This document shows, piece after piece, positions 16,264 to 21,094 of a stretch of DNA of 64,000 nucleotides. This DNA comes from Bacteroidia bacterium (lineage in GTDB: Bacteria > Bacteroidota > Ignavibacteria > UBA10030): the NCBI GenBank assembly GCA_022180565.1, contig BQML01000035.1, positions 1 to 64,000 of the forward strand, given 5' to 3'. A program made the position numbers and the translations under genes. The notes under the pieces are model-generated. The model ran no database searches and was not told where the DNA came from. It saw only the letters and a program-made list of their open reading frames with translations. Position 1 is the first letter of the stretch; the number at the start of each line of letters is the position of its first letter.

Positions 16264-16420
16264 CGGTTGTCAAATTCGAATGACGAATTTCGAAGCACAA
16301 AACAAATTCGAAATTCGAATATCGAAAATCAAAATAGCTGCGGATGTACGAAGACGGCACTGTTTGAACTTAGGATTTCCAATTTGTTTCGAATTTCGAT
16401 ATTGGATTTTGCGATTTTTC
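16264..16420. repeat. Palindromic intergenic repeat, copy 1 (most degenerate)
   Basis: This AT-rich stretch is built from recurring words such as AAATTCGAA, ACGAATTTCGAAGCAC and AAACAAATTCG. The opposite-strand words (TTGTTTCGAATTTCG) lie near its right end, giving an overall imperfect inverted repeat around a unique centre near 16345-16365. It shares its vocabulary with three further copies at 17505-17650, 18676-18880 and 19248-19396. Its right arm lies inside the 3' end of the isocitrate dehydrogenase gene and encodes that protein's last residues. Confidence 0.65.
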
Positions 16421-17504: not shown

Positions 17505-17650
17505 CAGTAGGCACCAAATTTCAACTCACAAACACACAACAAATCGAAAGAATCAATTGATAGAAATTCGCAGAAGCCGGTTTCGAACCTTTGGTCATTT
17601 CGTCAGAGGTGCTCGTTTGTGATTTCGAATTTCGTGCTTCGGATTTCATC
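17505..17650. repeat. Palindromic intergenic repeat, copy 2
   Basis: The copy begins near GCACCAAATTTCAACTCAC and ends with GATTTCGAATTTCGTGCTTCGGATTT. Its right arm shares GGTTTCGAACCTTTGGTCATTTCGTCA almost word for word with copy 4 (GGTTTTGAACCTTTGGACATTCTGTCA). It ends at the 3' edge of the broken yifB fragment, exactly as copy 4 ends at the 3' edge of the intact yifB. The region between the isocitrate dehydrogenase start (17434) and 17505 is AT-rich and may carry that gene's promoter. Confidence 0.75.
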
Positions 17651-18140
17651 ATATGACCGCATAGAAGTTTCTATCCAGACTCCGATACTGAATCGCCTCG
17701 CTCAAGTGCTCCGGCCGGATTGAGTCGCTCCCTGAAAGATCAGCAATGGTTCGGGAGACTTTCAGGACTCTGTCGTACGCTCTTGCCGATAATCCGAGCT
17801 TTGTCATTGCCATCTTCAAGAGCTCTGCACATGTTTCATCAATGGTGCAGAATTCCTTGATTTCCTTCGTCTCCATGTCCGCGTTGGAGAAGAGCCCCTT
17901 CTTTCCTTGAACCTTTCTGCCTGAATCATCCTCGCATTCATGACGCGCTCCCGAATCACGTGCGATGGTTCGCCCGTTCGTCTTCCCGAGAGTTCATTGT
18001 ACTTTACTGCCGGGACTTCGACATGAATGTCAATTCTATCAAGCAGAGGACCCGAGATCTTCCCCATATACTTGTGAATCTGCTGAGGAGGGCATGAACA
18101 CTCCTGCGCCGGATTTCCATAGTTACCACACACGCACCGT
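17649..18140 (-). pseudogene. Frameshifted 3' fragment of a yifB/comM paralogue
   Basis: The encoded fragments match the last third of the intact YifB at 19401-20942: CGNYGNPAQECSC, HKYMGKISGPLLDRIDIHVEVPAVKYNEL, then METKEIKEFC, KLGLSARAYDR and YRSLDRNFYAV. One base is missing relative to the intact gene around 17906-17930, splitting the frame. The upstream two thirds, including the Walker motifs, are absent; similarity fades near 18135. Many differences from the intact copy are silent, so this was probably a functional diverged copy before truncation, not a recent duplication. No product is expected to be active. Confidence 0.85.
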
Positions 18141-18152
18141 TGCGTCGCGCTT

Positions 18153-18566
18153 TTGCCAATCACCCTCAGGTGCCCAAAACCGTCGAAGATCCCCAAAAAC
18201 CTTCAGACTTGGGGTGATCATATTCTGAAAAGGAGGCTCGAACTCGGCATGCTTCAGAGGGACGTAGCTGCCATTGTCGGGTGCGACACAACTACGGTTC
18301 ATAACTGGGAAAAAGGTCGGACAAGGCCGCCCCTGCGTTTTTTGCCCAGGATCATCCGCTTTTTGGAGTATGATCCTTTCCCGAGCGAGGCAGAGACATT
18401 GGGAGAGCAACTACTCAAATATCGGCGAGATAGAGGCATGACGCAGAAGGAGCTTGCCCGGCGGATAAGGATTGATCCGGGGACGTTGAGTAGGTTGGAG
18501 AGAAGCAAGGACAGTAAGGTCTTTCGGACTGTCTTGCAGAAGGTGCAGAGTTACCTGAGTAGATAG
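18153..18566 (+). CDS. Double helix-turn-helix (XRE-type) protein, 5' end uncertain
   Basis: The protein has two Cro/CI-type HTH units. The first is around LELGMLQRDVAAIVGCDTTTVHNWEKG and the second around RRDRGMTQKELARRIRIDPGTLSRLERS, so it should bind DNA as a small regulator. The only upstream start is a TTG at 18153; the first in-frame ATG lies inside the first HTH. Because the frame abuts the broken edge of the yifB fragment on the other strand, the natural start may have been lost at the junction. Similar stand-alone two-HTH proteins occur widely in bacteria, but no target is known to me. Confidence 0.6.
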   Translation: MPITLRCPKPSKIPKNLQTWGDHILKRRLELGMLQRDVAAIVGCDTTTVHNWEKGRTRPPLRFLPRIIRFLEYDPFPSEAETLGEQLLKYRRDRGMTQKELARRIRIDPGTLSRLERSKDSKVFRTVLQKVQSYLSR

Positions 18567-18587
18567 CTGCGATGAGGACAAAAGAAA

Positions 18588-18616
18588 GGCGAACGGTCGG
18601 GAAATCACCGTTCGCC
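18588..18616 (+). terminator. Hairpin after the double-HTH gene
   Basis: A perfect 10-base stem (GGCGAACGGT / ACCGTTCGCC) encloses a 9-base loop, 22 bases after the HTH stop codon. No T-run follows, so it is either a factor-assisted terminator or a stabilising 3' hairpin. The rest of 18617-18675 shows no gene. Confidence 0.5.
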
Positions 18617-18675
18617 CATGCCGCTGATGAGTGATCCGAACTATTTGGTCAACGCCATCTTCATCACCTTAGTCC

Positions 18676-18880
18676 TTCGTTGAATAAGCACGAAATCACA
18701 AATCCGAAATCCGAAACAAATCCCAAGCATCAAATGAAAGAAATTCAAAACAGCTTTGTAGAGGGTTTTGGGTCTTGTTTCATTTCTCTTCATTCGTGCT
18801 TGTTTGAGATTTCGTGCTTGGTGCTTCGGATTGTTCCCTTTTGGTGTTTGTTTCGGATTTGATGATTCGCATTTCATATT
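18676..18880. repeat. Palindromic intergenic repeat, copy 3
   Basis: The left arm (GCACGAAATCACAAATCCGAAATCC..., GAAACAAATCCCAAGCATCAAATG) and the right arm (TTTCGTGCTTGGTGCTTCGG, GTTTGTTTCGGATTTGATGATTC) are imperfect reverse complements over roughly 60-70 bases. A centre near 18750 contains GTTTTGGGTCTTGTTTCATTTC. This is the longest copy. It ends directly at the stop codon of the four-helix-bundle gene. A 78-residue open frame within it is only repeat sequence. Confidence 0.8.
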
Positions 18881-19237
18881 TCATCCCTGCTTCCCTTCCG
18901 CCTTTCTTAGGATTGCACTGAAGATCATCATCAGCTCCGTCGCTTCCTGGATGAGAGACTCCTGTTCATTCCTTTGACTCTCGCTGGGGATAATCAAGCG
19001 CAGCCAGTATCGCGCCTCCTTTGACTCCTTTCGACTGATTCTGATTCTCATCAGAAAGTCCTTCTTGCTCAGGGCCTCGTTGGCTTCAATGTAATTGGCT
19101 CCGACGGAGCCGGAAGACCGAATAAGTTGGCGCCCATATTCCAGCTTTGTCAGGTCTTTGGGGAGCTTCCGGACGAAATCACGGACTTTCCTGGCAAATA
19201 TCTCTGTTCGCTCTTCCAGATCATAGCGTTTGCTCAT
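18881..19237 (-). CDS. Four-helix-bundle protein (23S rRNA intervening-sequence protein family)
   Basis: The 118-residue product begins MSKRYDLEERTEIFARKVRDFV and shows the family landmarks (R)QLIRSSGSVGANYIEANEALSKKDFLMRIRISRKESKEARYWLRL. These small helical proteins were first seen encoded in intervening sequences of 23S rRNA and are related to the Avd accessory protein of diversity-generating retroelements; their action is unclear. The ATG at 19237 follows a GGGGG ribosome site, and the open frame beyond is repeat-encoded. The gene fits exactly between palindromic repeats 3 and 4, with no reverse transcriptase or rRNA nearby. Confidence 0.88.
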   Translation of the reverse strand: MSKRYDLEERTEIFARKVRDFVRKLPKDLTKLEYGRQLIRSSGSVGANYIEANEALSKKDFLMRIRISRKESKEARYWLRLIIPSESQRNEQESLIQEATELMMIFSAILRKAEGKQG

Positions 19238-19247
19238 AATTCCCCCA

Positions 19248-19396
19248 GATTGAAGCACGAAATCGCAAGCACCAAATCCGAAACAAATTCTAAGACCCAA
19301 ATGACAGAAGTCCCAAACAACTTATCGCGGTTTTGAACCTTTGGACATTCTGTCATTCATATTTGTTTCGAATTTCGTGCTTCGTGCTTCGGATTT
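19248..19396. repeat. Palindromic intergenic repeat, copy 4
   Basis: The left arm begins TTGAAGCACGAAATCGCAAGC and continues with CCAAATCCGAAACAAATTC and CCAAATGACAGAAGTCCC. After a centre near 19325 (AACTTATCGCGG), the right arm reads TTTTGAACCTTTGGACATTC, TGTCATTCATATTTGTTTCG, then CGTGCTTCGTGCTTCGGATTT. The arms pair over most of their length (for example AATGACAGAA with TTCTGTCATT). It lies between the four-helix-bundle start and the end of the intact yifB gene. Confidence 0.8.
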
Positions 19397-19400
19397 AACC

Positions 19401-20942
19401 CTAAACAGCATAGAAGTTCCTGTCCAAACTCCTATACTGTATCGCCTCGCTCAAGTGTTCTGATCGGATGGATTCACTCCCGGCAAGATCTGCGATCGTC
19501 CGTGATACTTTTAGAATCCGATCATAGGCTCTGGCCGACAGTCCCAGCTTCGTCATGGCCATCTTCAGTAACTCCACCCCCGCCTCATCAATTCCGCAAA
19601 ATTCCTTGATCTCCTTCGTCTCCATATCTGCATTGCTGTACAATCCCTTCCTTCCTTCAAATCGATTTGACTGAATCTTCCGAGCTCTCATCACGCGTTC
19701 GCGAATCGTCTGCGATTGTTCCCCTGTACTCTTCGACGACAGCTCATTGTATTTCACTGCCGGTACTTCCACATGAATATCAATTCGATCAAGCAGTGGT
19801 CCCGAGATCTTGCCCATGTACTTGTGGATCTGCTGAGGATTGCATGAACACTCCTGAGCGGGATTTCCATAATTGCCGCACAAACAGGGATTCATTGCGC
19901 ACACCAGCATGAAGTTGGCCGGGTACTCAACGGACATCTTCGATCGGCTGATCGTGACCAGGCCATCTTCGAGAGGCTGACGGAGCACCTCCAAAACGTT
20001 CCGGGCAAACTCCGGAAGCTCGTCCAGAAACAGCACGCCATGGTGTGCAAGAGAAATCTCACCTGGCCGGGGAATGGTACCTCCGCCTACCAGAGCCGAA
20101 TCGGAAATCGTATGATGCGGAGACCGGAACGGCCGCGTCGAAACCAGGGCCGTATCGGGAGCAAGGAGTCCCGCCACGGAATGGATCTTGGTGGTCTCCA
20201 GGGCCTCCTCGAACCGCATGGGCGGAAGAATCGATGGCACTCTCTTTGCCAGCATTGTCTTGCCGGAGCCCGGAGGACCTATAAGAATTACGTTGTGTGC
20301 CCCCGCCGCGGCAACCTCCAGCGCCCTCTTCACGTTCTCCTGACCCTTCACGTCAGCCATATCCAGATCATACCTTGGGTCAGCATGAAAGATTTCATCC
20401 ATATTTACCTTGAAGGGCTGAAGCAGTTTATATTCTCCCGCAATAAATTGAACGGTTTCTCTCAAGCAACTCATAGGATAAACCGCGATGCCATCGACCA
20501 TCCCGGCTTCCTTGGCGTTTTCCTTCGGCAAAATGATCCCCCGGACTCCGCGCGCCTTTGCCTCAAGGGCTATGACCAGCGCCCCATGGACCGGCCGAAG
20601 AGCTCCGTCCAACGCCAACTCGCCCAGGAAGACGTAATGCTCCGCAATGTCAGAAAACACCTCTCCTGTCGTCAGAAGAGTTCCAAGAGCTATTGGAAGA
20701 TCGAACGCCGATCCCTCCTTGCGTATATCCGCCGGAGCAAGATTCACGCTCAACCGGCCGGTCGGATAGTGAAAGCCCGAGTTTTTGATGGCCGCAAAAA
20801 CACGCTCCCGACTCTCTTTAACAGCATTGTCCGGTAGTCCGACAATGTTGAATCTTGGATCCCCCGGTGCAAGGCTGGTCTCTACATCAACAAGGTAGGC
20901 ATCGACACCCAAAGTGGCGCCGCTATACAAATGAATGAACAT
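19401..20942 (-). CDS. comM: YifB/ComM-family Mg-chelatase-like AAA+ ATPase
   Basis: The 513-residue protein is complete: N-terminal Lon-like fold (VDVETSLAPGDPRFNIVGLPDNAVKESRERV), AAA+ core with Walker A GPPGSGKT and Walker B VLFLDELPEF, then CGNYGNPAQECSC (a Cys cluster) and the C-terminal chelatase-like domain. ComM homologues promote branch migration during integration of transformed DNA. It is single-standing, flanked downstream by palindromic repeat 4 and upstream by a heptamer repeat. A broken paralogue of its last third lies about 1.75 kb away in the same orientation. Confidence 0.93.
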   Translation of the reverse strand: MFIHLYSGATLGVDAYLVDVETSLAPGDPRFNIVGLPDNAVKESRERVFAAIKNSGFHYPTGRLSVNLAPADIRKEGSAFDLPIALGTLLTTGEVFSDIAEHYVFLGELALDGALRPVHGALVIALEAKARGVRGIILPKENAKEAGMVDGIAVYPMSCLRETVQFIAGEYKLLQPFKVNMDEIFHADPRYDLDMADVKGQENVKRALEVAAAGAHNVILIGPPGSGKTMLAKRVPSILPPMRFEEALETTKIHSVAGLLAPDTALVSTRPFRSPHHTISDSALVGGGTIPRPGEISLAHHGVLFLDELPEFARNVLEVLRQPLEDGLVTISRSKMSVEYPANFMLVCAMNPCLCGNYGNPAQECSCNPQQIHKYMGKISGPLLDRIDIHVEVPAVKYNELSSKSTGEQSQTIRERVMRARKIQSNRFEGRKGLYSNADMETKEIKEFCGIDEAGVELLKMAMTKLGLSARAYDRILKVSRTIADLAGSESIRSEHLSEAIQYRSLDRNFYAV

Positions 20943-21010
20943 GGATCCCCCCGATGAGAAATGAGAAGTAAAATGTGAAAAGTGAAAAGCGGCGGAAATA
21001 CCCCCCGGAA

Positions 21011-21065
21011 GGTCAGGGATCAGAGGTCAGAGGTCAGAGATCAGAGATCAGAAGTCAGAGGTCAG
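21011..21065. repeat. Heptamer tandem repeat (RRTCAGA)
   Basis: About eight units of a 7-base motif run in succession: GGTCAGG, GATCAGA, GGTCAGA, GGTCAGA, GATCAGA, GATCAGA, AGTCAGA, GGTCAGG (one extra base after the first unit). It occupies the intergenic space between the yifB start and the nuoI stop and contains no gene. Such slippage-prone arrays can vary in copy number; no function is evident. Confidence 0.75.
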
Positions 21066-21094
21066 GAAGCGACTTAGACCTTGAAACCTTGATC

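Follow-up and report, generated by a model that had tools for sequence, protein, structure and literature searches.

In the 64,000-nucleotide stretch of DNA analysed here (hereafter the window), a gene encoding a protein of 118 amino acids lies on the minus strand at 18881–19237, between two palindromes. The protein was assigned to the S23 (23S rRNA-IVP) family of four-helix-bundle (4HB) proteins by profile matches above the curated cut-offs (PF05635, 53.9 bits against 33.8; TIGR02436, 69.2 bits against 24) and by its AlphaFold2 model, which consisted of four helices with a mean pLDDT of 94; its subfamily is termed 'YDLEERT' here. No transposase or other catalytic domain was detected in the profile search, PF05635 being the only domain found. 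The closest solved folds were 2rld, a member of the S23 family (E 4e-5) and the only sequence match at E ≤ 1 among solved structures, and 2gsc (Xcc0516; E 0.0025), which is reportedly a homopentamer. Avd of diversity-generating retroelements (DGRs; 4dwl) was a weaker Foldseek match (E 0.15, TM 0.62–0.69 over the query), as was a DGR ribonucleoprotein. The link to 23S rRNA intervening sequences and to Avd drawn in the initial annotation holds.

The palindrome on the 5′ side of the gene (19252–19396), which also lies directly 3′ of comM, and that on its 3′ side (about 18685–18866) reach to approximately 15 bp of the start and stop codons, respectively, and belong to one repeat family built of CGAAxxx heptads. 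When folded as single-stranded DNA, both were better than 200 of 200 dinucleotide shuffles (z = −6.5 and −3.8, respectively), and the bracketing of the gene noticed in the initial annotation proved to be real. The gene-proximal arms, at 19259–19287 (21 bp from the start codon) and 18847–18875 (5 bp from the stop codon), form an inverted pair with a score of 18. Two palindromes of the same family without a gene were identified nearby: one at 17508–17645, 3′ of a comM fragment, aligns with 19253–19396 including the 3′ end of comM, and the other at 16273–16410 occupies the IDH–dus junction, from which it is absent in the same-genus genome G001. More copies of the family were present elsewhere in the same genome. 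Just upstream of comM, at 20975–21080, an AGGTCAG-type heptad tract that reads as an SEVRGQRSE ORF was also seen; it resembles a tract of another motif that carries no gene. Two further hairpin scans were uninformative, one being too strict for gapped palindromes and the other saturated.

The surroundings of the gene were characterized using the ORF list, profile searches, and comparison with relatives. An intact comM/yifB gene (19401–20942, minus strand) lies on one side, and on the other lie a double helix-turn-helix (HTH) gene (18153–18566, plus strand) and, beside it, a decayed 3′ fragment of comM/yifB (17655–18148, minus strand) covering amino acids 349–513. Besides the window, seven further places in six relatives (G004, G010, G012, G016 twice, G026, and G029) showed this break near amino acid 349 and an HTH gene adjoining the 3′ fragment, and a large serine recombinase with Resolvase and Recombinase domains was located at a truncated comM in G010, G026, and G033. 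No serine recombinase ORF was found between comM and the comM fragment in the window. The recurrent break, the HTH neighbour, and the recombinases in relatives indicated that an integrative island, whose end gene is the HTH gene, has left a scar here and that the window module is located within it. In this order, codon ~349 of comM/yifB emerged as a hotspot at which islands with a large serine recombinase integrate (window 17655–20942; L102, L105, L106, L107, L108, L110, L111, L112, L114, and L115), and the double-HTH gene is conserved close to the comM 3′ fragment there. Several large ORFs that on visual inspection resemble metal-efflux genes separate comM from its fragment in G004.

The occurrence of empty sites in relatives, which the initial annotation had raised, was borne out, as the position is not stable: in four genomes of the window's family (G009, G011, G013, and G021), full-length comM and IDH are ~95–160 bp apart, with neither a 4HB gene nor a palindrome of the CGAAxxx repeat family between them. 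In the same-genus genome G001, an unrelated gene comes after the 3′ end of comM, ahead of IDH and dus, and neither a 4HB gene nor such a palindrome is present; this comparison shows the downstream side alone, since the contig begins inside comM and an island further upstream is possible there.

We then investigated the flanks of other 4HB genes. Such genes were present in 39 of the 41 genomes examined, often in several copies, and ten were identified in the window's own genome. As the sample, 118 distinct 4HB genes were taken from the higher-scoring, listed part of the family search, so that weak or decayed members are under-sampled; six of the 118, whose flanks were too short, were set aside. 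For each remaining gene, the 150-nt upstream flank was aligned with the reverse complement of the 150-nt downstream flank, and a score of at least 13 was counted as a pass. Inverted arms were detected in this way around 71 of the 112 4HB genes of this order, compared with 1.9% of 621 other ORFs, 3.6% of 169 small ORFs, 2.3% of 1109 mismatched pairs (in which the downstream flank was that of another 4HB gene), and 0.4% of 560 shuffles. The score in direct orientation passed in 9 of the 112. The number of passes ranged from 60 to 72 at flank lengths of 80–300 nt, and the positive control, 20 Y1 transposase genes, gave inverted flanks for 13. When the 3′ window was begun 45 nt earlier, a measure chosen after the plasmid cases described below, 78 of the 112 genes and 2.7% of mismatched pairs passed. 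Some of the 41 genes without arms at the threshold may be decayed or may have arms overlapping the gene end. Within the window's own genome, six of the ten 4HB genes passed.

The arms are built of degenerate heptads. The mean flank profile showed periodicity at 7, 14, and 21 nt, also in genes below the threshold; flank by flank, heptad periodicity (lag 7, z > 2.5) was detected in 41 upstream and 43 downstream flanks of the 112 genes versus 14 of 220 random stretches, and is thus far from universal. Upstream arms were G-rich and downstream arms C-rich, the upstream arm being the G-richer in 66 of 71 pairs. Arm motifs differ between subfamilies and match between the two arms of one gene: between subfamilies, arms were alike only above ~50% protein identity, and the similarity then rose with identity. 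Mismatches between paired arms were G-U-compatible in 146 cases and A-C in 145; this equality gave no support for selection on an RNA stem, which was rejected as the reason for the arms.

Complete palindromes were not a general mark of 4HB genes. Among 56 4HB genes with folded flanks (for five of them a single flank was folded), the window copy alone had strong hairpins (z < −3) on both flanks, and in the window's subfamily the count was 1 of 78. The initial annotation had suggested that a palindrome–gene–palindrome unit could be a mobile module and that enrichment of palindromes at other copies of the gene would be a check; the idea of a mobile module held up, inverted arms being strongly enriched at other copies, but complete palindromes on both sides turned out not to be typical. 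The general form is arm–gene–arm, that is, inverted degenerate-heptad arms with the gene in the loop, and the window copy is unusual in that its gene lies between two complete palindromes. Because it does so within an old comM island scar, its own arms are indistinguishable from neighbouring gene-less copies.

To follow the window's subfamily across phyla, three members were used as queries against named GTDB genomes, and the best 80 of 550 candidate loci were taken. The proteins were 56–74% identical and came from Bacteroidota, Patescibacteria, Planctomycetota, Desulfobacterota/Deltaproteobacteria, Omnitrophota, Chloroflexi, WOR-3, Armatimonadota, and others. After two loci were dropped, the arm test was passed by 67 of 78, compared with 1.1% of 1701 places elsewhere in the same loci and 3.1% of shuffles; the subfamily set and the order set may share genomes, and the genes in them are not phylogenetically independent. 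When arms were mixed between loci, 51% of the mismatched pairs still passed, indicating that the subfamily keeps one motif across phyla. The second base of the heptad varies within the subfamily (CGAA, CTAA, and others), and the same variant letter occurred on both arms in 44 of 70 loci (8 of 78 having been dropped), while 5000 shuffles gave a mean of 21.9 and a maximum of 36. DNA similarity between copies stops at the arms: matches spanning the gene were obtained for 440 of 3003 locus pairs, with a median extension of 34 bp on the 5′ side and 60 bp on the 3′ side, and nine of the 440 ran more than 200 bp beyond the gene. The median distance from outer arm to outer arm was 472–489 bp, giving a unit of ~0.47–0.49 kb.

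Occupied and empty sites were compared at base level on cyanobacterial plasmids. A plasmid backbone shared by T. variabilis ATCC 29413 and Scytonema NIES-4073 bears, in both, a 4HB unit directly at one gene's stop codon, and the ~97% identical plasmids of Nostoc carneum, Tolypothrix, and Aulosira have 13 bp at the corresponding site. The occupied site showed a clear 5-bp duplication, and plasmid E of Nostoc sp. C052 retained a decayed remnant at the same insertion place. At the other base-level sites, the target duplication was 3–5 bp (a second site, in Nostoc), 3 bp at most (a third), or not clear (a fourth). The gap between cas10 and cmr3 contains a unit in Picosynechococcus PCC 7003 and 12 bp in PCC 7002 (90% identical), with no duplication resolvable. 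These occupied and empty sites indicated that the arms arrive with the gene. Since the 3′ arm overlaps the gene end in the plasmid units, the 3′ window was moved 45 nt earlier: 5 of 11 units passed the arm test from the annotated stop and 11 of 11 with the shift, a post hoc measure under which 24 of 110 mismatched plasmid pairs also passed (several of the units are near relatives). The units with the best empty sites (L341, L345, L355, and L351) passed only with the shift. 4HB units were also observed within CRISPR (csx2–cas1 and cas10–cmr3) and DISARM (drmD–pglX) operons of cyanobacterial plasmids (L346, L347, and L340).

Presence and absence were further seen between congeners belonging to the window's order. 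G024 lacks a unit of G008, although the boundaries are not exact, and G039 lacks a subfamily unit of G034. Another gap of the latter locus (G034:C24, G039:C3; L162 2456–3022) holds different 4HB units in the two genomes, with 35% protein identity and unrelated arms, as if the site had been re-used. A congener search with L145 yielded nothing beyond a single short flank match, located where a contig of G023 begins. A search of phage records for 4HB relatives, using one query protein of another subfamily, gave no match.

Orientation was counted for copies with both neighbours (ORFs of at least 150 aa) within 600 bp in the two sets of genes. The 4HB gene was in sense to both neighbours in 48 of 57 and 74 of 93 copies, and antisense to both in one and four copies, respectively, which sums to 122 in sense versus 5 antisense. 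If insertion and survival were blind to the strand, equal numbers would be expected. The bias reflects either entry through transcription or survival only where the gene is read, and it may be due to selection rather than to the insertion mechanism.

The motif also occurs without the gene. The window's own genome, which has two strong subfamily genes, contained 89 heptad-core places (three mismatches allowed) versus 11 for the reversed control, and palindromes occur in four of its stretches (L059–L062) that contain no 4HB gene. Across 22 further host genomes, 197 exact motif matches were found (gene arms counted) versus 13 in the control; no match was found in three of the 22 and one to three in six more, so that wide gene-less dispersal is not universal. 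G051, a Patescibacteria genome of 0.7 Mb in which only one 4HB relative was found (E 1e-12), had 34 matches, 30 of them of the CTAA variant, as in the arms of its 4HB gene. Separately, a ~34-bp palindromic repeat at L128 4394–4427, perhaps an ordinary REP of the Y1 kind, had more than 30 matches in G008.

The protein itself was conserved. Identities at the three codon positions were 0.67, 0.78, and 0.40 (600 random pairs; four of the 80 subfamily proteins, having a stop or an odd length, were left out), a pattern that indicates purifying selection. Residues Q37, S44, N48, E51, and E74 were kept in 102–105 of the 105 family sequences of the order set, and on the model four of them are located on helix 2 and one on helix 3. 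These near-invariant residues may constitute an active or docking site.

Considering these results together, we propose that the 4HB gene is probably the sole gene of a minimal mobile element of ~0.47–0.49 kb, which has inverted heptad arms and enters operon gaps in sense. The unit would comprise a 5′ arm, a 4HB gene presumed to lack a promoter of its own, and a 3′ arm, the arms carrying, in opposite orientations, a degenerate heptad motif that is specific to the protein subfamily. It would insert in sense into gaps between operon genes and be expressed by read-through. The 4HB protein would recognize the heptads of its own arms and drive or guide the movement of both the unit and the gene-less palindromes, perhaps through Q37/S44/N48/E51/E74 or by recruiting a host enzyme. 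The reading with the best support appears to be that of an independent system, with the 4HB protein working on its own arms. A bolder version, which we regard as possible and put forward tentatively, is that these units form a class of minimal transposable elements whose mobiliser is the S23/4HB protein itself: with a putative new nucleic-acid active or docking site (Gln, Ser, Asn, and two Glu), it might form a ring that reads the heptads, five subunits with seven nucleotides each, and move its own unit and the gene-less palindromes into operon gaps across phyla, and 23S rRNA intervening sequences might be members trapped in rRNA.

Another system might instead disperse the heptad palindromes, with 4HB genes riding in their loops as passengers. 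REP/BIME elements and RAYT (Y1/HUH) transposases provide the precedent, in which palindromes flank the transposase gene and gene-less copies lie elsewhere. The 4HB units resemble them in having a palindrome-flanked gene and gene-less copies, dispersed palindromes of the same motif being found in the window's own genome and in G051, and in some genomes the gene-less palindromes outnumber the genes. Y1 transposase genes were detected in 23 of 25 4HB-bearing genomes, the window's own included, compared with 5 of 14 control genomes. However, among 20 Y1 genes examined in the same genomes, 13 had inverted flanks of their own and none had heptad periodicity, indicating that those Y1 genes use other repeats; Y1 transposases were accordingly rejected as the source of the heptads, and the 4HB protein differs from them in lacking a Y1 domain. 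Moreover, G060 carries 4HB genes and five motif matches with no Y1 match (this genome may be incomplete), the arm motif goes with the 4HB subfamily whatever the phylum, and purifying selection acts on the protein, all of which make passenger status unlikely.

The strong bias for the sense strand would also fit movement through RNA, in which a reverse transcriptase supplied in trans copies back a folded sense operon transcript that holds the gene in its loop, and the 4HB protein acts like Avd. Very well matched arms in some copies are consistent with this route, as are the Foldseek matches, which included Avd and the DGR ribonucleoprotein, though neither of these at E ≤ 0.001. Against it, RVT_1 had matches in 10 of 25 4HB-bearing genomes and none in the other 15, some of which are incomplete; the window's own genome is among the 15, in contrast to a DGR. 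The arms also showed no G-U excess. Retro-movement is therefore improbable, and a reverse transcriptase was rejected as a necessary partner.

As for the module in the window, it might have been merely carried along by the comM island with its serine recombinase, the palindromes being incidental. The module is indeed flanked by comM and the displaced 3′ fragment and adjoins the end gene of the island, and a serine recombinase occupies the same comM position in three relatives. Nevertheless, none of the 19 comM loci L102–L120, whose islands were read in part, contained a 4HB gene, and the only comM locus with one was L121, a short contig of G027 with a truncated 5′ comM. In addition, the genome's other subfamily copy lies on C32, away from comM, and carries the same motif on both sides. 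The cargo explanation thus appears quite improbable, and the module was rejected as standard cargo of comM islands. That the arms are host regulatory or RNA-processing stems (terminators or RNase III sites) under selection, with the gene spreading by ordinary horizontal transfer, would fit the sense positions in operons and the excision of the Coxiella intervening sequence by RNase III described in a passage of PMC4990558, but it is highly improbable given the lack of G-U asymmetry, a motif that follows the protein subfamily across phyla, arms that arrive with the gene at base-level empty sites, and the existence of gene-less copies.

For the proposed 4HB element, the nearest described relative is the intervening sequence (IVS) of 23S rRNA. 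Passages of PMC4990558 describe the Coxiella IVS as 428 nt long, with an S23 ORF, a 28-bp terminal stem of inverted repeats, and tandem heptameric repeats before the start codon whose number varies between strains. The same passages call it a selfish element held to be horizontally acquired, cite older proposals of mobile IVSs, and state that the function of the S23 family is unknown and that the function and origin of IVSs are still unclear more than 25 years after their discovery. According to a passage of PMC11270868, rRNA insertions of CPR bacteria contain 23S_rRNA_IVP ORFs, and PF05635 is noted as Avd-like in a passage of PMC10053308. Going by its description, the Coxiella IVS shares with the 4HB units the protein family, an ORF enclosed by inverted ends, and heptamers. 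An S23-family ORF enclosed by complementary ends characterizes the class, the window arms being confounded by the complete palindromes. Whereas IVSs lie inside 23S rRNA genes, the window copy does not, and 4HB units are located between protein genes in many copies with many motifs; unlike IVSs, they have gene-less relatives and base-level empty sites. By analogy, 23S rRNA IVSs may be such units lodged in rRNA, where they would occupy stem-loops. The protein also differs from the product of a classical insertion sequence in that it has no transposase domain; if it is the mobiliser, it would represent a transposition principle without any known transposase domain. Free-standing matched-arm units in culturable cyanobacteria (T. 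variabilis ATCC 29413, and Picosynechococcus PCC 7003 versus PCC 7002) make both the function of 4HB proteins and the origin of IVSs directly testable.

Intergenic repeats of 7 bp are known in cyanobacteria as STRR. Passages of PMC4679880 describe 7-bp intergenic heptamer repeats of Beggiatoaceae and cyanobacteria that are patchy across phyla; they describe no matched inverted arms around a gene, and the terms '23S' and 'helix bundle' are absent from its main text, which does not link the repeats to 4HB genes. Among the literature matches listed, which were open-access and left most subscription journals outside, no link of free-standing 4HB genes with matched heptad arms was found. With the proposed element, at least some of the degenerate heptad repeats found between genes would be accounted for as pieces or remnants of mobile units. 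Tandem arrays of heptad units with an exact spacing of 32 bp, six copies each, were additionally observed at G000:C32:12812–12988 and G000:C13:42456–42632.
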